IMG/VR virus record: IMGVR_UViG_3300050121_000084
Location: 1-28,544 of that record
Origin: a virus
Strand: one strand, 5' to 3'
DNA: 28,544 nt
The position numbers and the translations under genes were made by a program. Positions 1,876-20,993 of the stretch are shown here, in pieces (within the stretch, counting starts at the first letter, position 1; each line of letters opens with the position of its first letter). The notes under the pieces were generated by a model. That model had not been told where the DNA came from and made no database searches. It saw only the letters and a program-made list of their open reading frames with translations.

Positions 1876-1876
1876 C

Positions 1877-5235: not shown

Positions 5236-5972
5236 AAGAGCATCCTTTATTGCTTTCCGCTCCTATGGTGTTGGCCGCTATTGCTGGACGCAAGCACGTA
5301 ACCCGGCGCATCCTGTCGAAGCGCAATACGCTGATTGACGGAAAACTGTGGTCACAGTCGAAGTGCAGCCCATACGAGCGCGGTCGGCATACGCAATGGG
5401 AAGACCTGGACTTCACCAACTGCAAGATTCACCCTGACGGTCTGCACGTGGCTTGCAAGCAAGTTTATGCGGCGCATCACCATATCTTGACGCCGATCTA
5501 CCAGCCCGGCGATGCAGTTTGGTTCAAGGAGACATTCTGCGAGCCGATCAACCACGGTGATCTTCGGAACGAATCTATTCGGGCGAAAGTCAACGGGGTA
5601 GAGTACGCGGCGGATATGGGAATTGAAAGGTTCCCATTAGGTGGTAACTTCACACCGCAACTGCGTGATTTCTGTTGGCGCTCTTCGATGTTCATGCCGC
5701 GATGGGCGTCGCGTCTTGTGCGTCCTGTCACTGGAGCGCATATTGAGCGGGCGCAAGACATTACCGAAGATCAGGCGCAGAGAGAAGGAGTTGCATGGTT
5801 TTCAACAGAAGGAACTTCGGCAGAGAAGACTTTCGTCGCCACTAAGTTCCCGGACGGATACCGCACCAACTTCATGCTTCTTTGGGATTTTCTTCGCCCC
5901 AAGGCTGGACAGCACTGGGACGACAACCCTCTCGTGGTTGCAATCGAGTTCGGCGACGAGGTGCGGAATTGA
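5232..5972 (+). CDS. ASCH-domain-like phage protein
   Basis: The 246-residue protein has the usual marks of a common phage family related to ASCH/PUA-fold proteins: an opening like LLLSAPMVLAAIAGRKHVTRR, a central YQPGDAVWFKETF, then MFMPRWASRLVRPVTG, an EDITEDQAQREGV-like segment (here QDITEDQAQREG), and a closing WDDNPLVVAIEF. ASCH folds are thought to bind RNA or modified nucleotides, but the role of this family is not established. ATG 5232 overlaps the previous stop by four bases. The 3' end overlaps the TTG start of the HNH gene. Confidence 0.82.
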   Translation: MKEHPLLLSAPMVLAAIAGRKHVTRRILSKRNTLIDGKLWSQSKCSPYERGRHTQWEDLDFTNCKIHPDGLHVACKQVYAAHHHILTPIYQPGDAVWFKETFCEPINHGDLRNESIRAKVNGVEYAADMGIERFPLGGNFTPQLRDFCWRSSMFMPRWASRLVRPVTGAHIERAQDITEDQAQREGVAWFSTEGTSAEKTFVATKFPDGYRTNFMLLWDFLRPKAGQHWDDNPLVVAIEFGDEVRN

Positions 5973-8178: not shown

Positions 8179-8654
8179 CAGACTCCGAGCAAGAGAGAGC
8201 GTGCTACCTCGCTTACCCTCGCCATGTTGCCCCCGCCGCTGCTATCAAGGCCATTCGCAAGGCAGTTGACCGGCTCCGCAGAGGGTGCGATGAGTATGTC
8301 GCCATGGACTCCGAGACGGCCAGGCGGTTCCTCTGGAAGAAAGCAACCGAGTACGCTCGCTCGCCAGCAGGACAAAAGCCGCCAGGACCCGAAGACTACC
8401 GCCCTCACCCCGCAACATGGTTCAACCAAGAACGGTACTTTGATGATCATGCCGAGTGGCAGAAACCGAACGGAGCAAGCAATGGAAAGCAGACTGGTAC
8501 GAAAGCAGACCGGACAGTTGATGCAGTCAGAGCCGCTGTCTCCCAAGCAGCAGATCATAGTCGCGCTCGGGACACTCGCACTGATGAGGGGCGGCGAGTA
8601 CAGCCAAGCGACGCTGACAGCCTTTTCGGAAGGACTATCGAAGGAACCGTTTGA
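8175..8654 (+). CDS. Phage replication-associated protein with PHPATWFNQ motif
   Basis: The 159-residue protein starts at ATG 8175, overlapping the preceding stop. Residues 10-95 match a segment common at the C-terminus of phage replisome proteins: AYPRHVAPAAAIKAIRKAV followed by YRPHPATWFNQERYFDD. Here the segment stands alone without the usual N-terminal DNA-binding winged helix. The last ~57 residues are hydrophilic and low in complexity and overlap the next gene for 173 bases. Position upstream of a DnaB-like helicase supports a replication role, possibly as part of a helicase loader or origin complex. Function is inferred from context. Confidence 0.7.
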   Translation: MTDSEQERACYLAYPRHVAPAAAIKAIRKAVDRLRRGCDEYVAMDSETARRFLWKKATEYARSPAGQKPPGPEDYRPHPATWFNQERYFDDHAEWQKPNGASNGKQTGTKADRTVDAVRAAVSQAADHSRARDTRTDEGRRVQPSDADSLFGRTIEGTV

Positions 8655-9003
8655 GGATGTGATTCGAGTCCTGAAGACGATCGCAGAGAGCCCGCGGCGT
8701 GAGCGGGAAACCGCGTGTCCTGACTTCGGTACGCTTCTGGTGGCCATCCGGTCCATTCGGCACCCGCAAAGGCATCTGAGGGGCATTGTGGTGAAGTTGG
8801 CGCGCATCTTCGGCGTGACGGTGGACGAGGAGCTGCTCGGACTGTACGAGGAGCGCGCCGGTCACCGCACAGATCAGGACATGGACACGGCTTATCGAGT
8901 CCTGAGCCAAAATGAAACGCTGAAGAAAATGCCCACGCCGGCGCAACTCTTGGCAGCGTGCGGTATTCCGAAAGTCTACCGGGATGGGACGAGGCCGGAA
9001 TGA
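8482..9003 (+). CDS. Unknown helical protein, possible replisome or helicase-loading factor
   Basis: I choose ATG 8482 (173 residues) because GGAG lies at 8472-8475. ATG 8521 (MQSEPLSPKQQ) is an alternative. Either way the gene begins inside the previous one in another frame. The protein is mostly helical: SEGLSKEPFEDVIRVLKTIAE is followed by CPDFGTLLVAIRSI, and a second helical repeat ends KKMPTPAQLLAACGIP. The two halves resemble each other in layout, an amphipathic helix followed by a Pro-containing 'fPt-ll' turn. This is typical of small phage proteins located before DnaB helicases. No catalytic motif is visible. The stop overlaps the methyltransferase start (ATGA). Confidence 0.7.
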   Translation: MESRLVRKQTGQLMQSEPLSPKQQIIVALGTLALMRGGEYSQATLTAFSEGLSKEPFEDVIRVLKTIAESPRRERETACPDFGTLLVAIRSIRHPQRHLRGIVVKLARIFGVTVDEELLGLYEERAGHRTDQDMDTAYRVLSQNETLKKMPTPAQLLAACGIPKVYRDGTRPE

Positions 9004-9644
9004 CGCCATACTACGAGCACGCTGGAATCACCATCTACCACGGCGATTGCCTGGAGATTCTTCCCTCACTGCCGAAGTGCGACCTGCTGCTGACCGATCC
9101 GCCGTATGGGATTAACCGCGATGGTAAGCCGCCCTCGACTTCAAGCCACGGCGGGCATAAGGGCTATGAATTTGCTGGATGGGATAGCCAAACTCCAGAC
9201 AAGGACATGTTTTCTTTGCTTTACGAATCAGCGAAGGATTGGATGATTTGGGGAGCTAACTACTTTTCTCCTTTTATTATTCCCGGTCCAGGATGGGCGC
9301 TTTGGGATAAAGGGCAGCGCATCGACCAAGCAGACAGGGAACTGGCAGCAAGCTCACGGCGCGGGCCTTTGCGCGTGTTCACACTCAACAGAGTGGCACT
9401 CATGGGCGATGGGGCTTGCCATCCTACTCAGAAGCCCCTCGCGCTGATGAAGTGGTGTCTTTCCCTGTTCCCCGACGCCAAGACGGTCGTGGACCCATTC
9501 TGCGGCTCAGGAACCACGCTTGTAGCTGCAAAGGCGATGGGGCTGACAGCAATCGGGATTGAACTGCACGAGCCTTACTGTGAGATCGTCGCCAAGCGCC
9601 TGAGCCAAGAAGTCTTTGACTTCGGAGGCCAGAATGACCGCTGA
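9000..9644 (+). CDS. DNA methyltransferase, beta-type, DPPY motif
   Basis: This 214-residue N6-adenine or N4-cytosine methyltransferase has its catalytic motif IV, LTDPPYG, at residues 31-37. The S-adenosylmethionine-binding motif I, VDPFCGSGTTLVA, is near the C-terminus, and HPTQKPLALM lies before it. That order is the beta class. The middle region that should recognise the target is short. DPPY alone does not separate m6A from m4C, although m6A is more usual. No partner restriction gene is visible, so it is an orphan enzyme that could protect phage DNA. It starts on the stop of the previous gene and its end overlaps the helicase start by 11 bases. Confidence 0.92.
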   Translation: MTPYYEHAGITIYHGDCLEILPSLPKCDLLLTDPPYGINRDGKPPSTSSHGGHKGYEFAGWDSQTPDKDMFSLLYESAKDWMIWGANYFSPFIIPGPGWALWDKGQRIDQADRELAASSRRGPLRVFTLNRVALMGDGACHPTQKPLALMKWCLSLFPDAKTVVDPFCGSGTTLVAAKAMGLTAIGIELHEPYCEIVAKRLSQEVFDFGGQNDR

Positions 9645-10986
9645 CCTCACACTCGACGCAGGACTGCCAGCTTCTATCGATGCCGAGCGCACGCTCCTAG
9701 GTGCTGTCCTTTTGGATAACCAGGCATGGGAGGAGATTCGCGCCGGCCTGAAGTCGGAAGATTTCTTTCTTGATTCCCATAGGCGCATCGCCAAAGCCAT
9801 CGGCGGCCTCATCAAGAACGGCCATGCCGTTGACATTGTGACGCTGGCAAACGAACTGACCGCACGGAAAGAGATTGAAGCCGTCGGAGGGGTGGCCTAC
9901 TTGGCATCCCTCACAGAAGGCCTTCCGCGGCGGCCAGTCATCGACGAGTACGTGGCTATCGTGAAGGACCGTAGTGTCCTGCGGCAGTTGATGGCCACAT
10001 GCACGGAAGCTATCTCCCGCGCACAGGACCAGTCTGAGACAGGACTCGAATTGACTGCCGGCCTGATGGGTCAGTTAGAGAATCTGACTACTCCAAGCCA
10101 AAGCGCCAACAAAGCCCAAGTCCAGAACTTCATTGTTGAATCCCTGGCAGAGATCAACCGGGAGTACGCCGAGAAGCTGAGCCCGTGCATCCCGACCGGT
10201 AACGCATGGCTGGACTCGAAGATGGGTGGTGGATTCCGGCATGGTCATATCACGATCATCGCGGCGCGGCCTAAGGTTGGCAAGACATCCGCAGGCGTTT
10301 CCTCGATGGCCTATAACCTGAAACAGGGTCGCAAAGTGGTGATGTTCTCGCTGGAAATGGAGAAGTCGGAGATCCTGAAGAACTTGGTTCCTTACGTGGT
10401 GGACCTGCCGAACATCGTGGTCGCCCGTCCATGGCTCCAGACTCCAGAGCAGAACCGGCTGGTCAATGAGGCCATGAACACCATCGTAGAGTGGCCTCTG
10501 AGCGTCTATGACGGCGACATGGACTGTGATGAGGTCTGCTGGACCATCGACCGCGAGACGCGCAAGGGAGACGAGGTTCTGTTCGTTCTGGACCACTTTG
10601 GCTTGATGACCGGAGCCGAGAAGGATATTCGCAAGCGGTACGTCGAGAACTCTGACCGCCTCCGCAGGAAGATGAAACACAAGAGGGCTGCATTGCTGTC
10701 CCTCTTTCAGTTGAATGAGGTCCCGCGGGAGTACGCAGACAAGCGGCCGCAACCTGGGGACATTGGCGAAAGCAAGAAGCCGTTGCAGGATTGCTTTGCG
10801 ATGATCCTGTTGCATCGGTATCAGGACAAAGAGACAATGCGCATGACAAAGAAGGCGAACATCAATCTTGCACTCATCCGTGGAGGTGGAGCGCCGGGGA
10901 ATGTAGACGGAGAGTTCAATGCGCGTCGGCTTTCATTTGAGGCAGACGCGGAAATTGACTACGAAGGGCAGGACTACTATGCGTGA
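9634..10986 (+). CDS. Replicative DNA helicase, DnaB-like
   Basis: The protein has 450 residues, starting at ATG 9634 behind GGAGG (9624-9628); an in-frame TTG 18 bases earlier lacks this spacing. An N-terminal DnaB domain opens with SIDAERTLLGAVLLDN (residues 14-29) and includes YLASLTEGLP. The RecA-like C-terminal domain has Walker A ARPKVGKTS (211-219), the family motif FSLEME (238-243) and Walker B LFVLDHFG (Asp320). DnaB hexamers unwind DNA at the phage fork and recruit primase. No separate primase or DnaC loader is recognisable nearby, so host factors or the two preceding small proteins may load it. The stop lies inside the next gene. Confidence 0.93.
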   Translation: MTADLTLDAGLPASIDAERTLLGAVLLDNQAWEEIRAGLKSEDFFLDSHRRIAKAIGGLIKNGHAVDIVTLANELTARKEIEAVGGVAYLASLTEGLPRRPVIDEYVAIVKDRSVLRQLMATCTEAISRAQDQSETGLELTAGLMGQLENLTTPSQSANKAQVQNFIVESLAEINREYAEKLSPCIPTGNAWLDSKMGGGFRHGHITIIAARPKVGKTSAGVSSMAYNLKQGRKVVMFSLEMEKSEILKNLVPYVVDLPNIVVARPWLQTPEQNRLVNEAMNTIVEWPLSVYDGDMDCDEVCWTIDRETRKGDEVLFVLDHFGLMTGAEKDIRKRYVENSDRLRRKMKHKRAALLSLFQLNEVPREYADKRPQPGDIGESKKPLQDCFAMILLHRYQDKETMRMTKKANINLALIRGGGAPGNVDGEFNARRLSFEADAEIDYEGQDYYA

Positions 10987-11122
10987 GCGTCCTGATGTTG
11001 ATTTGAACCTCATCCAGCGGCAACTTGCGGGCATAACCGAATTCCTCAAGAAGAACGTATGGAAAGGGAAAGATGCCGATCAAAAGAAAACCGAAGACGC
11101 CGGGGAGCGGAAGGCCATCTGA
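10979..11122 (+). CDS. Small unknown phage protein (47 residues)
   Basis: ATG 10979 overlaps the helicase stop by eight bases, and the frame runs to TGA 11120-11122. The product is charged and probably helical, with QRQLAGITEFLKKNVWKG in the middle. The upstream AAGGGCAGGA (10964-10973) gives a modest Shine-Dalgarno. The tight overlap on both sides supports a real gene in the operon. I recognise no family. Confidence 0.6.
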   Translation: MRERPDVDLNLIQRQLAGITEFLKKNVWKGKDADQKKTEDAGERKAI

Positions 11123-11273
11123 TGCTGTGATGGATGCGTATGCTCAACGGTACGAACTATCAGTTAAGCAAAAGACGCTCCTCACCCGCTGCATAGTTCA
11201 AGTTTCACTCTGCCAGAGCGATGAAGCGCGCAGATTGCTGTTAGGTGTAAGCCAGAAAGAAGTGGCGGCATGA
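11073..11273 (+). CDS. Small unknown phage protein (66 residues)
   Basis: ATG 11073 lies 50 bases inside the previous gene and follows GGAAAGGGAAAG (11059-11070), a usable Shine-Dalgarno. The product begins with a Lys/Arg/Pro-rich stretch (PIKRKPKTPGSGRPS) and ends with helices containing VKQKTLLTRCIVQ and EARRLLLGVSQKEV. A helix-turn-helix is conceivable, but I see no clear match. The stop overlaps the next start by four bases (ATGA), as elsewhere in this operon. Confidence 0.6.
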   Translation: MPIKRKPKTPGSGRPSDAVMDAYAQRYELSVKQKTLLTRCIVQVSLCQSDEARRLLLGVSQKEVAA

Positions 11274-11644
11274 TTCATCGCAGGACTCCACTGAAACGCT
11301 ACACGCCAGTACGCAAGAAACGGCCAGGAGTGCGCAAGGGGCAACCTACCAATGCGGAAAAGGAAACCGAACGCAACCGGGTTTATGAACGATGCGGCGG
11401 CCAGTGCGAATTGCGAGACGAAGATGGAAAGCCGTTGCATCCGAAGCATATCTTCGGGGTCCTGCCAAGCAAGGGAAGCATCTTTGAGCGCTGGCACCTT
11501 GTACACCTCCACGGGAAACGCCGATTCGGTTGGACGGAAGCAGCCGGCAACACGTTACTGGGGGGCTGCTATTGGTGCCATATCGTAGCAATGCACGAAC
11601 TCGGTCTTAAACCACACATCGAAAGGAAAGATCATGAACTATGA
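11270..11644 (+). CDS. HNH-like zinc nuclease-type protein
   Basis: The 124 residues start with the basic leader MIHRRTPLKRYTPVRKKR, common in phage HNH and NinG-like recombination proteins. Next come RCGGQCELRD (Cys42, Cys46), WHLVHLHGKRRFGW (His77, His80, His82), and GGCYWCHIVAMH (Cys100, Cys103, His104, His109). That spacing suggests a zinc-bound HNH fold, though the catalytic residues are not certain by eye. The encoded activity may be a DNA-nicking enzyme helping recombination or replication restart. ATG 11270 overlaps the preceding stop and the end overlaps the helicase start by 11 bases. Confidence 0.75.
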   Translation: MIHRRTPLKRYTPVRKKRPGVRKGQPTNAEKETERNRVYERCGGQCELRDEDGKPLHPKHIFGVLPSKGSIFERWHLVHLHGKRRFGWTEAAGNTLLGGCYWCHIVAMHELGLKPHIERKDHEL

Positions 11645-13022
11645 AGAGTTTCTGGAGTCCAAGGAGCAATACGGGGGAGATGCTGGATTCAAAGCTATCT
11701 CTATTCCTGATATGCTGTTCGACTTCCAAGGCGATACGGTTGAGCGGTCCCTGCGGAGAGGGCGCTCATCTATCTTCTTCGATTGCGGACTTGGCAAGAC
11801 TCCGATGGAGTTGACCTGGGCTGACAACGTGGTCCGCCACACAAACAAGAAAGTTCTGTACATCACTCCGCTAGGCGTGGCCAAGCAAACCATTCGAGAG
11901 TCTGAGAAGTTCGGCATCGAAGCGCACCGTTCAAATGATGGGCAGCTTGTCTCTGGAATCAACGTAACCAACTACGAGAAACTCCACCGTTTCAATCCGA
12001 ACGACTTCGCCGGGGCGGTGTGTGATGAGTCGTCATTCATCAAGGCAATGAACGGCAAGCGGCGCGCACAGGTGACTGAGTTTCTGCGCACGCTACCTTT
12101 CCGCCTGCTGGCCACGGCAACGGCCGCCCCTAACGATTACATCGAGCTTGGCACATCCTCCGAAGCCTTGGGTGTGATGGGCCAGATTGACATGCTCAAT
12201 CGCTTCTTTAAGAATGATCAGAACACCAGCGACACCCGCATGATGATTCGGCGCGCGCCAAACCAAGGCGGTCCAGTTAGCGCAGGATGGCGATTCAAGG
12301 GCCATGCGGAAGAACCGTTCTGGCGTTGGGTTTGCTCTTGGGCACGCGCGGCCCGCAGGCCGTCCGATGTTGGCCCATACTCCGATGCGCGCTTTGTCTT
12401 GCCACGCCTGATTGAGCGTGAGCACATCGTAGAAACGCGCACGCTGCCCGATGGGATGCTCTTTCCGCTGGCGGCAACCAACATGCAAGAGGAGCGCGAA
12501 GAACGCCGCCGCACCGTGCAGGAACGCTGCGAGATGGCCGCATCTTTGGTTGCTAGTACAGGCAAGCCATTCGTGATTTGGTGCCAGTTGAATCCTGAAG
12601 GCGACTCACTTGAGCGCATGATTCCTGATGCCGTTCAGGTTTCAGGTTCAGACAGCGACGAAGAGAAGGAAGAGAAGTACGAAGCCTTCGCAAGCGGTCA
12701 GGCTCGCGGCATCATCACCAAGCAGGTCATCGGCGGATGGGGACTAAACTGGCAGCATTGCGCCCACGTAGTAGAGTTTGCGACGCACAGTTTTGAGCAG
12801 CACTATCAGGGCGTTCGCCGCTGCTGGAGATTTGGACAAACGCATGATGTAATCAACGACCTGATAGCAACCGAAGGCCAACGAGGAATCAAAGAGAACT
12901 TGCGGCGCAAGCAGGTTGCCGCTGACAAGATGTTTGACGAACTGGTACGCCACATGAACGAGTCAGTCCGCATCGAAGGCGGATACAAATTTGAGAAAGA
13001 GGTAACAACGCCATGCTGGTAA
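11634..13022 (+). CDS. SNF2/DEAD-type helicase-like ATPase
   Basis: This compact superfamily 2 ATPase has 462 residues from ATG 11634, with GAAAGGAAAG as Shine-Dalgarno. Motif I is CGLGKTPME (residues 51-59), motif II is CDESSFIK (130-137), and motif III-like LLATATAAPND is at 158-168. The C-terminal RecA-like lobe has VIGGWGLNWQHC and the motif VI-like SFEQHYQGVRRCWRFGQT, whose arginines contact ATP. The DESS version of DEAx and the RFGQ ending are typical of SNF2-like phage proteins. Such enzymes translocate on double-stranded DNA. It overlaps the following methyltransferase by 10 bases, so the two are probably made together and act together on phage or host DNA. Confidence 0.9.
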   Translation: MNYEEFLESKEQYGGDAGFKAISIPDMLFDFQGDTVERSLRRGRSSIFFDCGLGKTPMELTWADNVVRHTNKKVLYITPLGVAKQTIRESEKFGIEAHRSNDGQLVSGINVTNYEKLHRFNPNDFAGAVCDESSFIKAMNGKRRAQVTEFLRTLPFRLLATATAAPNDYIELGTSSEALGVMGQIDMLNRFFKNDQNTSDTRMMIRRAPNQGGPVSAGWRFKGHAEEPFWRWVCSWARAARRPSDVGPYSDARFVLPRLIEREHIVETRTLPDGMLFPLAATNMQEEREERRRTVQERCEMAASLVASTGKPFVIWCQLNPEGDSLERMIPDAVQVSGSDSDEEKEEKYEAFASGQARGIITKQVIGGWGLNWQHCAHVVEFATHSFEQHYQGVRRCWRFGQTHDVINDLIATEGQRGIKENLRRKQVAADKMFDELVRHMNESVRIEGGYKFEKEVTTPCW

Positions 13023-14089
13023 TCGATCAGAAAATCACAGACAAATACGCGATTTACAACGGCGATTCAGTAGACATGCTCACCGCTTTGAAAGATGAGT
13101 CTATCCATTTTTCCGTCTACTCGCCGCCCTTTGCAACAGAGAACGGAGGGGCACTTTACCATTACAGTTCCTCTGACCGCGACCTTTCCAACTCTCGGAC
13201 CTATGAGGAGTTTTTCTCTCACTACGAGTTCATCGTACGAGAGATTCACCGGGCCACGTTGCCAGGGCGCATGACCGCCGTGCATTGCATGGATGTGCCA
13301 AACAGCAACAGCGGAAACGGAGACTCCTACACCGACTTCCCCGGCGACATTATCCGGTTGCATGAGCGGTGCGGATGGAGAATGGCTTCCCCTCGCATCT
13401 CGATTTGGAAGGAGCCGCTTGCCGTCCGCAACAGGACCATGACGAAGGCGTTGGCCCATAAGTCGATTGTGGAAGACTCCTGCAATTGTGCTGTAGCTGG
13501 GGCCGACTATCTCCTGATCTTTCGGCGCTCGGGAAAGAACGAAATCCCTGTCACTCACCGTCACGGCCTCATCAACTACGCCGGTACACGCAAGGTTCCG
13601 AAAGAACTTCTCAAGTACAAGGGGTGGACTGGAAACCAGATTGAGAATCGGTATTCGCAATGGATATGGAGACAGTACGCTTCGAGTGTATGGGACGACA
13701 TTCGCGGCAACATGGGTGACCGCAAAGAGAAAGGCGTATTGCCCTACCGCGAGGCCCGCGAAGAGGAAGACGAGAAACACTTGCATCCCCTTCAATTGGA
13801 CGTCATTACGCGCGCCGTGGAGCTTTGGTCGAACCCTAGCGAAACGGTTCTCACGCCGTTCATGGGAGTTGGTAGCGAAGTTTGCGCCTCACTCATGAGT
13901 GGTCGCCGGGCGATTGGTTGCGAACTCAAGCCGAGCTACTACCGTCAGGCCGTGCGCAACGTGGACGAGGTCGAAAAGAACGGTTGGCACGACGACAGCG
14001 GCCAGGAGATGCTTTCATTCCGCGAAGAGTTCTATGCCCCAATAGGAGAAGATCAGGACTCGGAAGAACCCACCGAAATGAACTTCTAA
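13013..14089 (+). CDS. DNA methyltransferase, beta-type, SPPF motif (probable m4C)
   Basis: The protein has 358 residues. Motif IV is YSPPFATE (SPPF at 37-40) near the N-terminus, and the cofactor motif I, VLTPFMGVGSEV, is near the C-terminus, followed by AIGCELKPSYY. This is the beta order. A Ser-Pro-Pro catalytic motif is more usual in N4-cytosine enzymes. The central ~180 residues are large enough to include a target-recognition region. Overlap with the SNF2-like gene suggests a coupled pair, an arrangement seen in several phage genomes. The last residues (GEDQDSEEPTEMNF) are acidic. It ends seven bases before a hairpin that probably terminates the operon. Confidence 0.92.
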   Translation: MLVIDQKITDKYAIYNGDSVDMLTALKDESIHFSVYSPPFATENGGALYHYSSSDRDLSNSRTYEEFFSHYEFIVREIHRATLPGRMTAVHCMDVPNSNSGNGDSYTDFPGDIIRLHERCGWRMASPRISIWKEPLAVRNRTMTKALAHKSIVEDSCNCAVAGADYLLIFRRSGKNEIPVTHRHGLINYAGTRKVPKELLKYKGWTGNQIENRYSQWIWRQYASSVWDDIRGNMGDRKEKGVLPYREAREEEDEKHLHPLQLDVITRAVELWSNPSETVLTPFMGVGSEVCASLMSGRRAIGCELKPSYYRQAVRNVDEVEKNGWHDDSGQEMLSFREEFYAPIGEDQDSEEPTEMNF

Positions 14090-14095
14090 CCCAAC

Positions 14096-14128
14096 ACCCC
14101 GCAGGACTCAATCGAGCTTCTGCGGGGT
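14096..14128. terminator. Probable bidirectional terminator between converging genes
   Basis: A perfect 9-bp stem, ACCCCGCAG (14096-14104) and CTGCGGGGT (14120-14128), encloses a 15-base loop. It stands where the plus-strand early operon and the minus-strand SNO gene meet, and overlaps the last codons of the SNO gene. The T-tracts on both sides are poor, so efficiency is uncertain. A CAGGAC hexamer spans the left arm and loop. Confidence 0.6.
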
Positions 14129-17100
14129 TACGTCATGCTCCCAATCAAACTTCGCCGGCATCAAGATCCCCTGCTCCGTCCCGCCCTCATGCTTTGTGAA
14201 CGTGATGATTCTCCCCTTGCTGCCAGGCTTCAACTGCCCGTAGGCTCCCAGCAGATTGCCGACGATGATCTTGGCGCGCTGCCGAGTGTCGCTTAGATAG
14301 TCCTGAAATAGATCAGCAATATCTGCATTGCGTCCAAGGTTCGACAGCGTAATCTTCTTGATCTGCGAGCCAGGTACGCGTACCTCGCGCAAAGGGCCAT
14401 TGACCGCAATGTAGAACTTCAGCGAACTGGGAGCGTAGGGGTTTCCGCTCACTTTCTTGCGACCGCGAATGTCGTAGATGATGCCGTTGTAAGTGTCGCC
14501 ATTGATCTCGATTCTGAGTCCTGTTCCCATTCGGAAGTCGTTCAGGATTGTCCGCGACCATTCCCTGATTTTCTGCGCCCGTTCGATGATGTGCGGCGCT
14601 TCCACGCCCTCAATGTACGGCTTGAACAAGCCCTCAAGGTGTGCGCTCAAGGCCCGCGCGTGGTACGTGTCCCGCTGCCATGGCTCGTACTTCATGAGAT
14701 CAGGACCATAAGTCTGGGCAATCAGTTCCTCGACCTCTGCCGGGGTGTACGACTTGCCTTGACGCTTGATTGAGTAGGTCCCGAAGATAGCATCTTCCCC
14801 GAACGGCGATGAAGGGTCCGAGCCAACGTAGATGACGTGCGATGTCTTCTGCTCTGCGTCAAAGTCGTAGGTCTTGGGTTCAAGGTCGTTCTGCCCGGTT
14901 TCGTCGAGGTAGGCGATGTAGTCCGTGTAGCTTTCGGTGATTGTCTCCATGAACTCGCGCTGCTCTTTTACGGGAAGCAATGCTGAGCGTCCCGTTGCGG
15001 TGCGCGCCAGGTCCTCCTCTGGGGTCCCGCCCTCCTCTTCCGACTTGTCCATCGTCAGGCCCATGAGCCGGGCTATCTGCTCATTCTCGTGCAGCCATTC
15101 CGCCACGATCTTGTCGCCGTACTTGTTCATCATGTCTGGCGCCTCAATCGACATTGCTGACCGGGTGTTGCTCGACGTGTTGGCGTTCAGGCTCTTCAGC
15201 TTCTTGGCGAGGCTGATGGCTGGTCGAATCTCTGCGGGGATAGCCAGGGAGAGCATGGTGTACCGCGGCAGGACCATCTGACCGGTCCTGTTCGACCTTC
15301 CCAAAATCTGCATGAACACATTCACATCGCCGGCCGGTTGGGCAACGATCATGTGCCGCTGATGCTGATCCTTGAACTTCTCAGAAGCGTGAAGACTTAT
15401 CCCCGTGGATCCAGCCTGGTTCAGGACCAGACAATCGACGCCTCCATTGTTGAACAGACTGCCCGTCTGTACGCGGTCCTTGCGCTCGATGGACGGGACT
15501 GAAGACAGGACCGGGACGGGACCCGCGTAGTTGATTCGGTAGGAGCGACCGGTAATCTCTGCCACGGTAAAGCCAGCTTGCGTGATGCGAGTCCTGATCC
15601 AGTCGATAGGCGACACGGGCAACGTCACGGCGAGGTTATCAAGCAGCCTCTCGGCCTCCCGGTACTTGGCTTCCGTCTCGACGTAGAGCAGGTGGCGCGG
15701 GAACTCTTGACGGTCATTGCCCATTGAGGTCTTGATGGTGTAGTGGAGGGTCCTGTCGAGCGCGCGTCTGAGGATAGTGGACCATGAGAGCTTATCAAGC
15801 ACTTCGCCCTCACTCAGGTTCTCCGCGCTCACATAGCTGTCGAGGAACGCCCCCATGGTGCTCTCAAGGGCCACAATCGGCTTCTCTCCGCGGCCGAGCG
15901 CTTCGATGGCGCAATCCGCCGCCGCGTCCGACTTCAAGGCCAGGAGGAACTGCTTCACGATGTTGTGGACGATGGCGCTGAACTTGTGGTGGTAGATTTT
16001 GATGCGCCTCTTCTTGTACTGAAGGCGCAGAGTCTCGAAATCGTTCTGATGATAGTCCTGATCCGCTTTGAAGATGGCGCGCAGGACTTCCGTCACATCG
16101 TCGCAAATCTGCTCTTGATAAAGCTGATTCCGGTCGTCAATGAAGTTCAGGATGCTGATGCCTTCAAAGGACCGCTCACGGCGCACGAGCTGGCCGGTCT
16201 GGGCGAGTTGATGGCTCACGACAGTCTGTAGTGGTGGACCACCGGCCCGGATGGCGTCAGAGACGCGCTGGTTGTCGGGAATGGCAATCGAGATGTCTGT
16301 CTTGGTGGCGTAGAGCGTCATGTTGTCCGGCCGCTTCGCCCACGTTGCCGACAGGAACATCACGCCGTGCGCCGCGGGGAGAACCTCTTGGAAGAACGCT
16401 CCCGTGTTCGACTCATCGCCCCCGGCGTTGTGGGACTCGTCCAAGATGAAGACGGCTTTCGGCGCCAACCGTCTCAGGGCTTCCTGCTGGATGTTGATCG
16501 TGTTGATCTGCGAATAGGTCAGGTAGACGGCGTTCCGCGCGCGGGGAAGTTCGCCAGTCTCGGCAATCCTTGTCAGGACCCCCTTCATGCTGCTCTTGTT
16601 GGCGAATATCTTGCGTCCTGTTGCCTGCTCAGTTATCGACGCCCCCGCATTGAAGAGCAGCGGCCAGACGTTCGGCCCGAAGCCGATGTCGTCAAGGTCC
16701 CGCTGGAAGTCGGTGAAGAGGGTATCCGAGTACGTGACGAAGATTGGCAACAGGCCATGGAGGATGGTCCACCGGCAGACGGCCGCCGCGACTCTACCCT
16801 TTCCAACTCCGGTTTGATCCGCGCACACCAGCGCCTTTTGCTTCCTGATCTGCCAGATGGCCAGGGCAATCGAATCAACCTGGAGGCCCATGAAGTAGCT
16901 CTGCATCTCCTTGACCGAGGGGTACTCCAGTTCGCGGGCCACGAACTCATCCAAGTCGCCAACCTCAGCACGGACGCGCTCCATCGCCTCCCGCATCGGC
17001 TCTTTCATCGACCGCGGACACATCACCGCTTCATCCTGGAGGCTGGAAAGAGAGGTGTAGACCTCTTGATAAGCGTTCAGGGACTCAACAGGACGCTGAA

Positions 17101-17179
17101 TCCGGGTCCTGCGGTTGAGTAGAAGGAGGCGAGTTGATAAGTCGATCATTTTTGCATTATAAACCATATTTTGCTTCAC
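14108..17179 (-). CDS. Strawberry-notch (SNO)-type superfamily 2 helicase
   Basis: The protein has 1,023 residues from GTG 17179, or 1,013 from ATG 17149; neither has a clear Shine-Dalgarno. The first RecA lobe has LVCADQTGVGKGRVAA (Walker A, about 118-132), a FVTYSDTLFTDFQRDLDDIG segment, FILDESHNAGG (DESH 247-250) and MFLSATW (274-280). The second lobe has NQAGSTGISLHA and MQILGRSNRTGQ (motif VI). These are family marks of bacterial and phage Strawberry-notch helicases. The remaining ~350 residues form an uncharacterised C-terminal region. In phages such proteins often associate with DNA methylation and anti-restriction (the DarB type). It is separated from the late operon by a terminator, so it is likely a single-gene transcript. 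Confidence 0.88.
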   Translation of the reverse strand: MKQNMVYNAKMIDLSTRLLLLNRRTRIQRPVESLNAYQEVYTSLSSLQDEAVMCPRSMKEPMREAMERVRAEVGDLDEFVARELEYPSVKEMQSYFMGLQVDSIALAIWQIRKQKALVCADQTGVGKGRVAAAVCRWTILHGLLPIFVTYSDTLFTDFQRDLDDIGFGPNVWPLLFNAGASITEQATGRKIFANKSSMKGVLTRIAETGELPRARNAVYLTYSQINTINIQQEALRRLAPKAVFILDESHNAGGDESNTGAFFQEVLPAAHGVMFLSATWAKRPDNMTLYATKTDISIAIPDNQRVSDAIRAGGPPLQTVVSHQLAQTGQLVRRERSFEGISILNFIDDRNQLYQEQICDDVTEVLRAIFKADQDYHQNDFETLRLQYKKRRIKIYHHKFSAIVHNIVKQFLLALKSDAAADCAIEALGRGEKPIVALESTMGAFLDSYVSAENLSEGEVLDKLSWSTILRRALDRTLHYTIKTSMGNDRQEFPRHLLYVETEAKYREAERLLDNLAVTLPVSPIDWIRTRITQAGFTVAEITGRSYRINYAGPVPVLSSVPSIERKDRVQTGSLFNNGGVDCLVLNQAGSTGISLHASEKFKDQHQRHMIVAQPAGDVNVFMQILGRSNRTGQMVLPRYTMLSLAIPAEIRPAISLAKKLKSLNANTSSNTRSAMSIEAPDMMNKYGDKIVAEWLHENEQIARLMGLTMDKSEEEGGTPEEDLARTATGRSALLPVKEQREFMETITESYTDYIAYLDETGQNDLEPKTYDFDAEQKTSHVIYVGSDPSSPFGEDAIFGTYSIKRQGKSYTPAEVEELIAQTYGPDLMKYEPWQRDTYHARALSAHLEGLFKPYIEGVEAPHIIERAQKIREWSRTILNDFRMGTGLRIEINGDTYNGIIYDIRGRKKVSGNPYAPSSLKFYIAVNGPLREVRVPGSQIKKITLSNLGRNADIADLFQDYLSDTRQRAKIIVGNLLGAYGQLKPGSKGRIITFTKHEGGTEQGILMPAKFDWEHDVTPQKLD

Positions 17180-17198
17180 TTTTGACTATTTATCAAAA
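17156..17198 (-). promoter_or_regulatory. Possible SNO-gene promoter and operator dyad
   Basis: On the minus strand a perfect TATAAT is at 17161-17156. No good -35 is found 16-18 bases upstream. If it is a true -10, transcription would start at about 17149, exactly at the second possible start codon, giving a leaderless message. Upstream lies a perfect inverted repeat TTTTGA (17180-17185) / TCAAAA (17193-17198) around 7 bases of ctattta. It overlaps the T-tract of the late terminator and could bind a regulator. Confidence 0.35.
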
Positions 17199-17222
17199 AG
17201 AAAAGGCCACCCGAAGGTGACC
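17195..17222 (-). terminator. Rho-independent terminator of the late operon
   Basis: Read on the minus strand, GGUCACC pairs with GGUGGCC (17222-17216 with 17211-17205, one U-G pair) around a UUCG tetraloop closed by C-G. This is an especially stable hairpin. The tract UUUUCUUUUU (17204-17195) follows at once. It lies about 50 bases after the last late gene. Confidence 0.92.
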
Positions 17223-17274
17223 CTCTCTTTGCTCTGACTACTACCGCAATCCTCCTACATGTTGAATTTGACTC

Positions 17275-17973
17275 CTACCAAAGACCGAGTGCCTTGTTTC
17301 CTGCCTTGACGCCGAATTCTGCGAAAGGCCCAACTTTTTTCCACCAAGGGACCGGGGCGAAGTATCGCTGAGTCAGATCGTCGCTCACCCGCTGCATGTC
17401 TCCTGTGATTGCGTACGCGTGCCCGGTAATGCCCGCGGCATGGTCCAGAATCTCGCCTATCGCTTTGCGCTTGAGTAGAGCGTCCAGATCATCGCCAGCG
17501 TTCGTATACGACGCAAGGAGCGGTTGCGCGGCGGCGATGGTACGTTTCCCTTCGCCAAGCGTGTCGGTCGCAGCATCTAGCGTCCCTGTGGCGGCGTGCG
17601 CGGTTCCTGCGAGTGAATCTGCTGTACTAGAGAGATGTACCGCCGCTGTGCCGAACTGATCCATTGCCGCGGTGACGTGCGGGGCCGTGTTGCGCTCTAT
17701 CAACTGAGTGCGCACGATAGCATCTCCTGCGTCAATTGCCGTCTTGTTGATTTGCGCCAGAGTACCGCACGCATCTGGACCTGATGGCCCTTTGCATGGG
17801 CGGTTGAGATGGTCAAGCGTTGGCTTCAGGTCAGGAGCAGCGTTGCCCCAGTGGTCCACGGCTACAACGATATGGTGCCAAGCTCCCCAGCAGCCCCACA
17901 CGGCCAGACCCAGCACGATCAGATGCGGAAGGCTTGCGCCGATCATCCAACGGATCAGGACACGATTATTCAT
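17275..17973 (-). CDS. Membrane-anchored protein, unknown function
   Basis: The 232-residue protein starts at ATG 17973 behind AGGTGAG. Residues about 8-32 form a hydrophobic segment (IRWMIGASLPHLIVLGLAVW) that is a signal anchor. The rest is Ala/Thr/Asp-rich and looks helical, with repeated heptad-like stretches (SSTADSLAGTAHAATGTLDAATDTLGEG) and two cysteines at about 60 and 69. The C-terminus has PVPWWKKVGPFAEFGVK. Being last in the lysis end of the late operon, it could help lysis (spanin-like) or sit in the host envelope, but no spanin signature is clear. No family is recognised. Confidence 0.75.
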   Translation of the reverse strand: MNNRVLIRWMIGASLPHLIVLGLAVWGCWGAWHHIVVAVDHWGNAAPDLKPTLDHLNRPCKGPSGPDACGTLAQINKTAIDAGDAIVRTQLIERNTAPHVTAAMDQFGTAAVHLSSTADSLAGTAHAATGTLDAATDTLGEGKRTIAAAQPLLASYTNAGDDLDALLKRKAIGEILDHAAGITGHAYAITGDMQRVSDDLTQRYFAPVPWWKKVGPFAEFGVKAGNKALGLW

Positions 17974-17991
17974 GCTCTCACCTGAAAAGAT

Positions 17992-18015
17992 GGCCGGCCC
18001 TTTGCCAGACCGGCC
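17992..18015 (-). other. GC-rich hairpin between late genes
   Basis: GGCCGG (17992-17997) pairs with CCGGCC (18010-18015) across 12 bases, in the 69-base gap between two late genes. Minus-strand ATCTTTTC follows. It could be a weak attenuator or an mRNA-processing/stability element; the T-tract is too short to call it a terminator. Confidence 0.4.
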
Positions 18016-18042
18016 CCGTTATGAAGTGGTGCAGTGAACTTG

Positions 18043-18501
18043 TTAAGCCGTAGGCGTTGCTGTCGAAGCCGCCAGAACCGCCTTGGCGATCAACTGTGCA
18101 ACCGTGCCGATAGCGTTGATGATCAGCTTGACCTTGGCAATCGTGGCGGGGTTCGTGACGTGACCCGCCGTCTCCAAAGCCGCAAGGTTGGTCTGCACAG
18201 CGGCGAAGATCGAAGCTGCGGTGGGGCTCGGGCCAAAGTCGTACACCAAAGCCGAAGCACGGTTGAGGTCGGTTACCGCCTCCTCCACGATGGCATCGAT
18301 TGGGCCAGCCAGCGTGCCAGCTCCGGCCAGCGGAAGAACGATGGCAAGACCATCCTCCGCATAGTTCACTGTGGTGTCGATGACCTGAATCAGAGTGGGT
18401 TCGTTCTTGTAGAACGATGCATACTCCTTGGTCAGGAAACTGACGAAGGTCTTCGCTCCGCCTTCAATGTCGCTGATGACTGCCTTGATTGAAAATCCCA
18501 T
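18043..18501 (-). CDS. Unknown late protein, probable helical
   Basis: The start is ATG 18501 with a strong Shine-Dalgarno (AAGGAGG on the minus strand), giving 152 residues. The chain has an N-terminal MGFSIKAVISDIEGGAKTFVSFL, a hydrophobic Gly/Ala-rich middle segment (GLAIVLPLAGAGTLAGPIDAIV) and an Ala-rich helical C-terminal half. The hydrophobic stretch could insert in a membrane but is broken by Gly and Pro. The position next to a holin-like gene suggests a lysis or virion-associated role. I do not recognise a family. Confidence 0.75.
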   Translation of the reverse strand: MGFSIKAVISDIEGGAKTFVSFLTKEYASFYKNEPTLIQVIDTTVNYAEDGLAIVLPLAGAGTLAGPIDAIVEEAVTDLNRASALVYDFGPSPTAASIFAAVQTNLAALETAGHVTNPATIAKVKLIINAIGTVAQLIAKAVLAASTATPTA

Positions 18502-18520
18502 GTCTTGCGCCTCCTTGGCG

Positions 18521-18766
18521 CTACTTGTTTGCGTCACCGGGAAAGGTGGCGCCAGGGTTGTTGATTGTGGCGTTGGGTCCTGTTGAGTTGCTGGTTGCAC
18601 TTGCGTGACCGGCAAAGGCTCCGAGGGCGCCGCTGACAAGGTTGGAGGCAATGGCAAGCACTGCGAGGACGATGTTTGCCGGAGATGGAGCAAAGAGGCA
18701 AGCCAGTGCAAGAATAACCCCCAGTACGGCGAGAACTGTAGCCCAAAACGGCTCGGGAATCTTCAT
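18521..18766 (-). CDS. Small two-TM protein, holin candidate
   Basis: The 81-residue product starts at ATG 18766 (GGGAAGGGAA upstream). It has two closely spaced transmembrane segments, about residues 8-26 (WATVLAVLGVILALACLF) and 29-51 (ANIVLAVLAIASNLVSGALGAF). A polar Asn/Thr/Gly-rich C-terminal tail follows. Size, topology and closeness to the endolysin fit a class II holin, which makes the inner-membrane hole for the endolysin. Holins share little sequence, so the call rests on these features. Its start overlaps the stop of the small zinc protein upstream (ATGA). Confidence 0.7.
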   Translation of the reverse strand: MKIPEPFWATVLAVLGVILALACLFAPSPANIVLAVLAIASNLVSGALGAFAGHASATSNSTGPNATINNPGATFPGDANK

Positions 18767-18903
18767 AGGGTTCCCTTCCCGCTGCAAACGCAGCATTTTA
18801 GATGCTCCTGAATTCCTTCGCGATGGCCGACTTCAATCCAACCTTTGCCGTCGCAAAGAGAGCAGAGGCGCTTCCAAAACAGGTTTTTGATAAACCAAAT
18901 CAT
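18763..18903 (-). CDS. 46-residue zinc-knuckle protein with two CxxCxGxG motifs
   Basis: This short gene fills what would otherwise be a gap between the endolysin and holin-like genes. ATG 18903 begins seven bases after the endolysin stop, and the stop overlaps the holin-like start by four bases. The product begins MIWFIKNLFW, a short hydrophobic/aromatic stretch. It then has CSLCDGKGW and CCVCSGKGTL, two DnaJ-type CxxCxGxG zinc-binding motifs about 20 residues apart. Such pairs bind one zinc ion between them. There is no strong Shine-Dalgarno, so it may be translated by coupling. Function unknown. Confidence 0.7.
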   Translation of the reverse strand: MIWFIKNLFWKRLCSLCDGKGWIEVGHREGIQEHLKCCVCSGKGTL

Positions 18904-18910
18904 ATTGAAA

Positions 18911-19423
18911 TCAGGATACACCAGATACGGATTGCTTCACGGCAGAATCGTATGCCTTTTGCAGATCAGCGCAGTATTTGATAACGCCAGTTGGCGGATT
19001 GACTGTCTTGTGTCCCAAGTTCCAGATTTGACCGATCTCCAGCAGGTTCTTGGGCTCGAAGTGCGCTACGTAGGAATTGAAGTGACTGACGCATCCGCGG
19101 GCACAGTCGTCGAGGTTGATCTCTAGTTCTGCCGGCGAGAACCCTGGGTAGTTGATAAGCATGAGTTGCCATGGGCCAAAACTGGAGGCCCCGAGACGAC
19201 CGTACTGGGCCACGAGCGCGCGCTGCGCAGGACTCGAAGCCCATACCGAACCGCCTACGTCGTACGCAGGTTCATGCCGCGGCCCGCAGTCGTTGCCAGT
19301 GCTGCTTTCGTTAGAAGCCAGGGCAGCCATGATACGTTCACCGTCGAGTCCTGTCGGGGCCTTCAAGACCGGGCCATACTTTGCGCAGGCTGCTAGGACT
19401 TCAATCTTTGGAAAGCTGTTCAT
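18911..19423 (-). CDS. Endolysin, lytic transglycosylase-like
   Basis: Starting at ATG 19423 (GAGGG upstream; an earlier in-frame ATG at 19441 lacks one) the protein has 170 residues. The segment MAALASNESSTG provides a Glu39-Ser-Ser motif typical of lysozyme-fold transglycosylases. SSFGPWQLM (80-88) follows, matching the conserved Gly-x-x-Gln-hydrophobic region. Near the C-terminus, IGQIWNLGH and YCADLQKAYD complete the fold signature. It would cleave peptidoglycan once released through a holin. There is no signal peptide, which agrees with holin-dependent export. Gene neighbours encode membrane proteins, as expected in a lysis cassette. Confidence 0.78.
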   Translation of the reverse strand: MNSFPKIEVLAACAKYGPVLKAPTGLDGERIMAALASNESSTGNDCGPRHEPAYDVGGSVWASSPAQRALVAQYGRLGASSFGPWQLMLINYPGFSPAELEINLDDCARGCVSHFNSYVAHFEPKNLLEIGQIWNLGHKTVNPPTGVIKYCADLQKAYDSAVKQSVSGVS

Positions 19424-19430
19424 GTTGCCC

Positions 19431-19493
19431 TCACAAGTCATTGGGTTGCGGAAGATCGCGAGGCCATTCCGGATTGGGACTCGGTGTATCCAT
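19431..19493 (-). CDS. Possible 20-residue peptide
   Basis: ATG 19493 begins a short Pro-rich frame (MDTPSPNPEWPRDLPQPNDL) that stops eight bases before the endolysin start. Its termination could feed ribosomes to the endolysin start. The Shine-Dalgarno is weak (ACGGGTACGCC). It may be chance, so this is a low-confidence call. Confidence 0.25.
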   Translation of the reverse strand: MDTPSPNPEWPRDLPQPNDL

Positions 19494-19505
19494 GGCGTAC
19501 CCGTT

Positions 19506-19847
19506 TTAGTGCGCTCTGAAGATCAAATTTGTGACCCACCCCAAGAACGCGCCCATGATGCCAAAGGCGGCCGCGTAGCCGGTCATGAGGATCTTCCATT
19601 TCTCTTGGGCGGTCAAGCGGTCCTTGATGCTCTCGATGACTTTCGGAAGGCCATCTGTGCGCTCTACAACTAGCGTTAGAGCGGTTTTCAGTTCTGCTAG
19701 CGCCGCGCCATGCTCTTCGAGCAGTTTGGTCTGCGAGTTCTCTCGCTCTTTGGCGAAGGCATCCCGCTCTTTTGTAAGGCGCTCAATGTCCTTTTGGAGG
19801 GCATTCACCCCGGCGAATTGGCTTACGTTCGTTCTGCGCTCAACCAT
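19506..19847 (-). CDS. Coiled-coil protein with C-terminal TM, XhlA-like
   Basis: ATG 19847 is the first ATG in frame (113 residues). An upstream in-frame TTG at 19871 is less likely. Residues 15-83 form a charged coiled coil (KDIERLTKERDAFAKERENS onward). A single C-terminal TM runs from about 85 to 110 (KILMTGYAAAFGIMGAFLGWV). The topology resembles haemolysin XhlA-type proteins, which sit in phage lysis cassettes and assist the holin, and also some phage inner-membrane spanin-like proteins. Only the topology supports this; specific motifs are absent. Confidence 0.7.
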   Translation of the reverse strand: MVERRTNVSQFAGVNALQKDIERLTKERDAFAKERENSQTKLLEEHGAALAELKTALTLVVERTDGLPKVIESIKDRLTAQEKWKILMTGYAAAFGIMGAFLGWVTNLIFRAH

Positions 19848-19874
19848 CTTTGTCCCGCTCCATAACTCCAATTT

Positions 19875-20993
19875 TTAGTAGCCGATTACGCGCCAGGCAC
19901 ACTGGCCCTGCTGAATAGTGTTGCCGTTGCCGTCGTACCAAACGGTAATACCCGATGTCGTGATTCCACCAGAAGCTTTATCGACTGAGCAGGTGAATGG
20001 GTGAGTCCCGCTACATGTTCCCGATGATCCCGTGCAGTATTCAGATGTGAAGCTAGGGACAACGTAGTTGACGCTGGTGAAAGAGATAGGGAAGGTGATC
20101 GAGATGTCAGTCGCCACAGTTCCGCCGAAAACATTGGATGTTCCCCATTGCTCAATAGTTCCGTCGGCAAAGATGCGGTAGCAAGCGTAGGTGGAGTTGG
20201 CAATGCTGCTGGTACATGTTCGGGAAGTGACCGCGCTAGATACCGATGTAACGCGGCCCTGGGCATCAGTGGTAATAGATGAGGGGTTGGTCACCGTGCC
20301 GGCCGTGCCAGTGTTCGGAAGTCCAACGTTAGTCTTTCCAGTCCCGTTGCTGCCTACCACCGTTCCGTCGAAGTTTAAGATTGGCTGCTGGGCGAGCGCC
20401 GATCCGTTCTCCTGCACTGTTTGGTAGTAGAGCGTGGCAGCAGCAGGAAGCGCATTGCACAGAGCGTTTCCGTTGGATGCGATACCGTAGGCGAAGTATG
20501 ATGCTGGGTTGCATGCTGTCGGAGTGGATGCAAGGGCATTCGCCGTACTTGAGTTGCCGGTCAGTGGGCCGATGAAGCCGGATGTGTCAGTGAGCGCGCC
20601 GGTCATTGTTCCGCCGGCCGCCCAGTTGTCAACCAAGGTCACATCAGGAACGAAATACTGGCCATACGAGGAGTTGATCAGAAGCCCGTAATGCCCTACT
20701 GCCGCGCAGAAGAAGTAGTTGCCGCCGGCATCGGTCGTGAACGGGTTTGTGGGGGTTGCCGTGCCGAGGGCTGTCGAGGTGTAGATGCCGACTTTGTTCG
20801 CCACGCAATTGGCCGCTGTCGAGCCTGGCGTGCAGAGCGCAACGGTGGCGTAGGGAATCGGAGCAATGACGCCGTTTGAGATGGTCTGCGCGACGTTTGA
20901 TAAACAGACCCCGATGGGAGCCTGGGCGATGGCAAAGGCTGCGCAAAGCCAGAGAGCGGCGAGGGCGATGATGCGCTTTACTGATCGATTCAC
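19875..20993 (-). CDS. Tail-fibre-like protein with N-terminal signal peptide
   Basis: GTG 20993 overlaps the preceding stop (GTGA) and has GGAGG upstream on the minus strand; the product has 372 residues. Residues 1-24 form a Sec-type signal peptide (RSVKRII then ALAALWLCAAFAIAQA). Next is an Ig-like/carboxypeptidase-regulatory-like domain ending PFTTDAGGNYFFCAA. A Gly/Ser/Asn-rich middle includes TDAQGRVTSVSS. The C-terminal ~120 residues, with IEQWGTSN, ISITFPISF and CAWRVIGY, match the common phage tail-fibre C-terminal (gp53-like) domain that contacts the host surface. A signal peptide is unusual for a cytoplasmically assembled fibre. It could be an exported phage protein or a hydrophobic virion anchor. 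Confidence 0.75.
   Translation of the reverse strand: MNRSVKRIIALAALWLCAAFAIAQAPIGVCLSNVAQTISNGVIAPIPYATVALCTPGSTAANCVANKVGIYTSTALGTATPTNPFTTDAGGNYFFCAAVGHYGLLINSSYGQYFVPDVTLVDNWAAGGTMTGALTDTSGFIGPLTGNSSTANALASTPTACNPASYFAYGIASNGNALCNALPAAATLYYQTVQENGSALAQQPILNFDGTVVGSNGTGKTNVGLPNTGTAGTVTNPSSITTDAQGRVTSVSSAVTSRTCTSSIANSTYACYRIFADGTIEQWGTSNVFGGTVATDISITFPISFTSVNYVVPSFTSEYCTGSSGTCSGTHPFTCSVDKASGGITTSGITVWYDGNGNTIQQGQCAWRVIGY

Follow-up and report, generated by a model that had tools for sequence, protein, structure and literature searches.

Exchangeable DNA-modification genes in two slots of a phage replication block

The viral record IMGVR_UViG_3300050121_000084, a complete linear record of 28,544 bp that is probably a fragment (the window in what follows), carries two DNA methyltransferase genes, MT1 and MT2, together with genes for a SNF2-type ATPase (SNF2) and a strawberry-notch helicase (SNO). 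MT1 and the SNF2-MT2 dyad occupy two fixed exchange positions within the replication gene block, slot A and slot B, whose contents differ between related contigs (sisters). The likely reading is that the phage modifies its own DNA with the enzymes of these two slots as an anti-restriction measure, that sisters swap the slot contents, and that SNO is separate from them. Recombination in the conserved edges would exchange the contents, each swap bringing a new methylation specificity or a new chemistry (5-methylcytosine (m5C), N-methyl or Mom) and most likely shielding progeny and incoming DNA from locally varying host restriction; SNF2 would be the dedicated ATP-driven motor of its own methyltransferase on double-stranded DNA, probably moving it along. 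An earlier interpretation of the same DNA (the sequence-only reading) had proposed, as plausible, that all four genes form one modification and anti-restriction set: the role survives as the best reading, with SNF2 and MT2 as a true unit, and the set of four does not; the grouping goes beyond chance for SNF2 and MT2 alone.

The SNF2-MT2 dyad

SNF2 and MT2 overlap by 10 bp (13013-13022) and form a near-obligate pair, a true helicase-methyltransferase unit. In locus lists comprising the best 80 of 96 and the best 80 of 397, MT2 lies directly downstream of SNF2 in 77 of 80 SNF2 loci (IMG/VR), the other three ending too early, and SNF2 lies upstream of MT2 in 79 of 80 MT2 loci (once at 404 bp), the last being cut; both genes are present in 26 of 27 bacterial-genome loci, the exception being L159. 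Four of the five exceptions to adjacency are cut by the contig end, and the gap between the two genes is mostly -6 to +6 bp. The distances of the two proteins are correlated (Mantel test on 131 pairs, r 0.71, 0 of 999 permutations), and both genes are under strong purifying selection: against the closest four or five sisters, the ratio of nonsynonymous to synonymous substitution rates (dN/dS) is 0.024-0.049 for SNF2 and 0.057-0.089 for MT2, in a set of 24 chosen loci, some from the same contig.

The sequence-only reading had called MT1 a DPPY methyltransferase and SNF2 an ATPase overlapping an SPPF methyltransferase, and both calls hold: the two motifs are read in MT1 and MT2, respectively, and both proteins score well above the PF01555 cut-off of 26.7 bits (Table 1). 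SPPF enzymes are generally assigned to methylation of cytosine at N4 and DPPY enzymes to that of adenine at N6. SNF2 (462 residues) is weak in Pfam (Helicase_C 20.7 bits against a cut-off of 23.5) and is matched by PHROG helicases; across 25 homologues, its Walker A, DE and motif VI residues do not vary. It aligns to positions 266-612 of phrog_16 and MT2 to positions 819-914, so that a single PHROG spans SNF2 and then MT2, as expected of a fused family. Fusion is found in 66 of the 72 FUS-type loci examined (of 79), and SNF2 is 37-44% identical, over the same length, to fused relatives or to those of F1 mycobacteriophages (see below).

The model of one such relative, FUS777 (predicted local distance difference test (pLDDT) 78.9, predicted template modelling score (pTM) 0.64), resembles the INO80 and ISW1 motors over residues 40-449 (Z 32-33, root-mean-square deviation (rmsd) 2.7-3.1, 371-384 residues aligned; for INO80, Z 33.2, rmsd 2.7 and 371 residues) and the Thermus methyltransferase 2zie over residues 472-747 (Z 26.4, rmsd 2.2, 222 aligned). 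Residues 451-460 have a pLDDT below 50, so that the mutual arrangement of motor and methyltransferase is not fixed by the model. A phmmer search of the PDB with SNF2 gives no match. SNF2 has relatives in 307 phage records, including those of Mycobacterium (146), Flavobacterium (85), Arthrobacter (27) and Pseudomonas (22) phages; gene adjacency was inspected in a few of these, and Flavobacterium phage hattifnatt9-1 has an annotated endonuclease gene between SNF2 and the methyltransferase.

Contents of the two slots

Slot B is delimited by blastn against sisters with other occupants. On the left, similarity of 70-90% extends up to 11,351-11,589, and a block of 45-55 bp at 11,609-11,663 is 94-100% identical (it is not reported for L094 and L083); inside the slot, similarity is lost except for two short patches of 76-80% in some fusion carriers; on the right, it resumes at 14,047-14,091 (14,115 in L095, which has an insert there) and continues through SNO at 87-92.5%. 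What sisters with other occupants lack is SNF2 and MT2, from the first codons to the last. At the left edge of slot A, similarity stops at 9003-9005 in the 10 loci reaching it, and MT1 probably starts at the ATG at 9000, overlapping the stop codon of the preceding gene. Exact short repeats flanking the slots amount to 10-mers in the window and were not found in 8 other loci. DnaB alleles, on the far side of slot A, are 51-68% identical in amino acid sequence between otherwise close sisters, so that exchange reaches the replicative helicase too.

Slot contents were assessed in 38 contigs, of which six are without a score for slot B and twelve without one for slot A. L006, with an MT1-like fragment of uncertain position, is left out of the slot A counts; L087, L097, L099, L104, L106, L107 and L118, whose sequence stops before either slot, and the rearranged L270 (partial SNO, transposase-like gene) are not among the 38. 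As L122 and L123 are near-identical and L093 and L116 come from one sample, the counts are of contigs, not of independent events. Slot B, in 32 scorable contigs including the window, holds SNF2 and MT2 (17, one of them visible as MT2 alone), a SNF2-methyltransferase fusion of 753-777 residues (FUS777; 7), a second fusion of 909 residues (FUS909; 2), a helicase-free Dam-type methyltransferase of 343 residues (DAM343, PF02086; 3) or GroEL (3). Slot A, in 25 scorable contigs, holds MT1 (in the window only), Mom (2) or other methyltransferase-type genes (17), and is empty in 5. The Mom genes score 98-99 bits with PF25680 (cut-off 27.1; E 8e-28 and 3e-28), in agreement with PHROG, and match PDB entry 8bv8 (E 5.5e-8). 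The 17 comprise m5C genes (PF00145) of types a (5, one a remnant), b (2), c (1, short) and d (1, weak) and 8 cases of split open reading frames (ORFs), with methyltransferase PHROG matches and no Pfam methyltransferase.

The contents of the two slots reassort: m5C type a and the split type are each found both with SNF2 and MT2 and with FUS777, and an empty slot A is found with four states of slot B (SNF2 and MT2, FUS777, DAM343, GroEL). Conservation of the four-gene grouping, which the sequence-only reading had named as its test, is not what the sisters show, as the slots hold other genes while SNO stays. The GroEL genes, named by PHROG, lie at 16462-18192 in L129, at 12292-14466, with GroES, in L130, and in L240; L129 and L130 are more distant sisters (the gene left of slot A is about 70% identical) and show no SNO in the sequence available, while L240 keeps a stand-alone SNO, 68% identical. 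AP2/HNH homing-type ORFs are seen between MT2 and SNO in L005 (3859-4521) and L095 (8438-9100), and an HNH/AP2-like ORF in L094 (11818-12120) is joined to the start of the slot A m5C gene.

A comparable slot is seen in Cheoctovirus (subcluster F1) mycobacteriophages, sampled as Bubbles123 and ten further phages hand-picked among 40 listed of 369 records. Their DNA is 88-94% identical to Bubbles123 to the end of an HNH region; the next gene is a split SNF2-methyltransferase pair in Bubbles123, Spikelee, Emma and Whouxphf, a fused protein of 839 residues, 52-53% identical to FUS909, in Zerg and Eradicator, an MT1-like enzyme (37% to MT1) in Ibhubesi, and another PF01555 enzyme in DLane and SimranZ1. 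A methyltransferase is found at this spot in 9 of the 11 phages, coupled to SNF2 in 6 of the 9; Bubbles123 has an m5C enzyme slightly further along. The HNH proteins of the window group and of the F1 group yielded no alignment; the F1 slot is an independent parallel. In Ibhubesi (L363, about 5656-5687) and SimranZ1 (L368, about 4827-4858), the 3' end of the HNH region recurs behind the methyltransferase gene as a near-copy of 32 bp, which may have been left by an insertion.

The SNO helicase and the CAGGAC signal

The sequence-only reading placed the four genes together within 8 kb, and their coordinates stand; as a single operon they are rejected, SNO being convergent and on the opposite strand. 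The plus-strand block, up to 14,089, contains the genes for the PD-(D/E)XK exonuclease-like and SbcC-like proteins, DnaB, MT1, SNF2 and MT2, with DnaB and a small HNH-like gene in the interval between MT1 and SNF2. The minus-strand, presumably late, block past 14,089 contains a Tail_P2_I protein and tail-fibre-like proteins, and SNO is its end, 18 bp from MT2 and downstream of a strong hairpin and T-rich run that separate it from the tail genes. The hairpin is absent from the output of a simple terminator scan. Few genes of the lineage are as conserved as SNO (median amino acid identity 96.2%, n=15; median dN/dS 0.056): the SbcC-like gene also has 96.2% (n=7), the upstream neighbour of slot A 86%, the P2I protein 89% and the tail fibre 69%. 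SNO is a constant core gene that closes the tail block and lies outside the exchangeable module.

SNO (1023 residues, starting at GTG 17179 or ATG 17149; several sister matches open at residue 12) passes the cut-offs of PF13871 (78.4 bits against 30.5, reaching just profile position 184 of 271) and PF13872 (50.7 against 27), and Pfam finds SNO/helicase domains alone, without a methyltransferase domain. This bears out the helicase call; the C-terminal region, which the sequence-only reading had described as unexplained, is aligned in 30 sequences, and its residues 721-1020 are predicted to be folded (block pLDDT 71-91). AlphaFold2 gives a confident motor (pLDDT 82.9, pTM 0.76), whose top structural match is ZorD of the Zorya system (Z 18.4, rmsd 3.6, 434 aligned), on a level with eukaryotic SNF2 motors; the best matches, ZorD and SWI2/SNF2 motors, align about 390-470 residues at a Z of about 17-18 (rmsd 3.6 to almost 20) and span mainly residues 64-745, thus saying nothing on the C-terminus. 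A phmmer search of the PDB returns chance matches to ribosomal S6 alone, and tblastn against phage records reaches Bacteroides and Acinetobacter phages only.

Distant relatives of SNO, 36-58% identical, lie within giant ORFs, and here the earlier comparison with DarB proves apt. All 29 distinct contigs that combine an ORF of more than 2,500 residues with the SNO Walker A have exactly one (N/D/S)PP(Y/F/W) motif, NPPF, 326-510 residues upstream in the same polypeptide; in L246 Pfam recognises this part as an Eco57I methyltransferase, whereas it names no methyltransferase in L243. The arrangement is that of the DarB-type dyad (PMC5512222). The helicase half of DarB-like methyltransferase-helicase proteins may be the ancestor of SNO or have been derived from it, and the window copy has lost, or never had, the methyltransferase part. 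A bolder idea, to which we give little credence, is that SNO, standing alone, is a motor of the DarB type that has parted from its methyltransferase and now serves the enzymes of slots A and B in trans, perhaps delivered with the virion, so that the mark would be changed by swapping the catalytic cassette alone.

The enrichment of CAGGAC reported by the sequence-only reading is real: the window has 71 copies against 17 expected, in all frames and on both strands. Its suggested link to the methyltransferases is rejected, as the enrichment (3.9-5.9-fold) is kept in every sister of at least 6 kb compared, whatever the slots contain, and is missing in the other phages L014-L016, whose SNF2 and MT2 are 85-90% identical and which yet show 0.4-0.6-fold. 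L129 (4.9-fold) and L130 (4.5-fold) have GroEL in slot B, no dyad and no SNO in the sequence available, L130 also lacking a slot A enzyme; conversely, L239 has a stand-alone SNO (71%) but only 1.3-fold, a counter-example to a link with SNO. The signal, seen in L129, L130, L240 and L243 and absent in L239 and L270, belongs to the phage lineage and does not depend on any of the four genes. Three Acidobacteriota metagenome-assembled genomes have 0.46-0.83 CAGGAC per kb against 2.5 in the window, a comparison that carries little weight; its built-in control is void, as the hexamer reads the same backwards. The words ATCAGGAC (17 observed, 0.9 expected) and CAGGACTC (17 observed, 1.1 expected) are also lineage-wide signals.

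The coordinates of the features are collected in Table 1. The Cys/His pattern of the HNH-like protein upstream of slot B is common to its sister homologues. Further along in the window, a protein of 811 residues (22582-25017) is pectate-lyase-like, with CHB_HEX_C_1/Fn3-associated repeats, and probably a tail spike; TTGATAA occurs 13 times against 1.9 expected, mostly at 15636-21756 in the minus-strand late block. Matches of a sigma-70 promoter scan of the window are no commoner than in shuffles, and megablast of the window against phages gives no match.

Table 1. Features of the window and the two Mom genes found in slot A of sisters
Feature	Position	Strand	Basis
PD-(D/E)XK exonuclease-like gene	1817-3187	+	Pfam/PHROG scans
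SbcC-like gene	3313-5235	+	Pfam/PHROG scans
Conserved gene, left border of slot A (edge at its stop codon)	8224-9003	+	blastn edge; no PHROG match
MT1, small beta-class DNA methyltransferase (DPPY, FCGSGTT), slot A occupant	9000-9644	+	PF01555, 75.6 bits
DnaB-like replicative helicase, bordering slot A on the right	9616-10986	+	PF03796/PF00772
HNH-like small protein, upstream of slot B	11270-11644	+	phrog_740 HNH, weak (E 0.076); no Pfam match
Slot B exchange block, first codons of SNF2 to last codons of MT2	11609-14091		blastn against sisters with other occupants
SNF2-type ATPase, upstream gene of the slot B dyad	11634-13022	+	phrog_62 (E 1e-41), phrog_16; invariant ATPase motifs
MT2, beta-class SPPF DNA methyltransferase, second half of the dyad	13013-14089	+	PF01555, 66.3 bits; adjoins SNF2
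SNO, stand-alone strawberry-notch/SNF2-clade helicase	14108-17179	-	PF13871, PF13872
Terminator-like hairpin, U-rich 3' side, between gene 17275-17973 and SNO	17190-17232	-	-22.2 kcal/mol, z -5.4
Mom hypermodification gene, slot A	L125 10777-11334		PF25680, PHROG
Mom hypermodification gene, slot A	L126 8594-9151		PF25680, PHROG

Rival readings and known systems

Several observations weigh against slots dedicated to DNA modification. Five of the 25 slot A contigs are empty, 3 of the 32 slot B contigs carry GroES/GroEL, and 2 of the 11 F1 phages, Fruitloop and Drago, have a protein of 225 residues without a Pfam match at the equivalent spot, so that the slots are not exclusive to modification. 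The eight split ORFs of slot A may be inactive, and a further slot A gene, the m5C type a gene of L094, is a remnant broken by an HNH/AP2-like ORF. Slot B is without a helicase in L094/L114, L124 and L126, so that this position does not generally require one. Ordinary phage mosaicism, moreover, exchanges accessory genes at conserved edges, and could by itself account for slots that accept any cargo; methyltransferases would then be frequent only because phages commonly carry them and they travel with HNH/AP2 homing-type nucleases. The GroES/GroEL and F1 cases just named would fit such mosaicism, as would the HNH-like genes beside the slots, the AP2-HNH ORFs that separate MT2 from SNO in L005 and L095, and the one in the L094 remnant. 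As an explanation it is nevertheless unlikely: modification-type genes make up 20 of 25 slot A contents (one of them the remnant) and 29 of 32 slot B contents, SNF2 and MT2 are under the strong purifying selection described above, and the slots contain several unrelated folds and chemistries, including Mom, which argues for selection on function and not on one mobile gene.

Alternatively, SNF2 and MT2 could be a compact superinfection-exclusion or defence module of the DISARM/BREX type, in which MT2 would label the phage's own DNA and the motor would attack DNA without the label. The combination of helicase and methyltransferase recalls DISARM, as the sequence-only reading remarked, the DrmD model matches the C-terminal part of SNF2 (E 1e-5 to 9e-5), and ZorD heads the structural matches of SNO, though tied with the eukaryotic motors. 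The DrmD match (NF038318), however, is confined to this helicase part and reaches 20.8 bits against a cut-off of 950, which disposes of the DISARM candidate; scans of 20 window proteins with Pfam and PHROG, and of four with PADLOC, find no DrmA, DrmB or DrmC in a record that is itself a fragment. SNF2 has no nuclease domain by Pfam, three contigs have helicase-free methyltransferases in the same slot, and the five bacterial-genome loci with the pair that were examined look phage-like, with phage-like neighbours and further methyltransferases. Together, these points make a defence module highly improbable. The sequence-only reading saw no restriction nuclease, and none is fused to the pair, while the PD-(D/E)XK exonuclease-like and SbcC-like genes are present elsewhere in the window. 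Least probable of all is a role of the methyltransferase and SNF2 genes in replication or regulation (marking origins, strands or packaging sites): the conserved operon position beside DnaB and exonuclease genes would suit it, but such a mark should stay constant, whereas chemistry and enzyme family differ between sisters and 5 of 25 contigs have no slot A enzyme.

If the slots work as proposed for self-modification, near-identical phages differing in their modification enzyme are a natural experiment, which would reveal which mark defeats which restriction system and whether the methyltransferase needs its SNF2 motor, a question for a widespread dyad; the F1 parallel makes the slot model testable in a standard laboratory strain. 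The unbroken fusion of SNO and methyltransferase in the giants examined, set against the stand-alone SNO, raises the question of whether a DarB-type helicase can work when separated from its methyltransferase.

Coupling of SNF2-clade ATPases to DNA methyltransferases in phages, by fusion or gene neighbourhood, has been described as the methylase-helicase dyad, existing outside polyvalent proteins too, with translocation-coupled methylation proposed for anti-restriction (Iyer et al., 2017, PMC5512222, in the parts consulted). The window dyad and its relatives conform to it in both kinds of coupling; the methyltransferases of the polyvalent proteins in that account are mostly gamma-class NPP(Y/F) enzymes, with LPD36 in the polyvalent form, whereas MT2 is a PF01555 SPPF enzyme, encoded by a separate gene and exchanged as a cassette. 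The same source describes DarB as an anti-restriction virion protein. SNO resembles the helicase part that follows the NPPF motif in the DarB-like giants, but stands alone, the comparison being with these giant relatives and not with DarB itself. Type III restriction-modification systems (Mod/Res) and DISARM likewise join a beta-class methyltransferase to an SF2 motor; in the window the motor has no nuclease domain, the helicase gene comes first and the DrmD cut-off is missed.

Exchange of methyltransferases has been reported between prophages of the Bacteroides fragilis group (Tisza et al., 2023, PMC10333322); paired slots at fixed positions, SNF2 dyads and Mom as an alternative are not mentioned in the sections consulted. 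Actinophage orphan methylases are patchy, of a family not conserved within phage clusters and frequently transferred horizontally (Gosselin et al., 2023, PMC9957025); they are, as far as this account was seen, one family with inteins, with no helicase partner reported. The closest layout is that of the Cheoctovirus F1 phages, whose slot likewise follows an HNH region and holds a split pair, a fusion, or an MT1-like or other methyltransferase; it differs in its unalignable HNH proteins and in lacking SNO by tblastn of phage records, the one SNO search made there. Among the few hits examined, in part, in the open-access literature, we recognised no earlier description of fixed exchange slots or of alternation between Mom and methyltransferases. 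Dyads and the swapping of methyltransferases between phages are thus already published; the variation found here lies in the layout of two slots across chemistries and in the stripped SNO.

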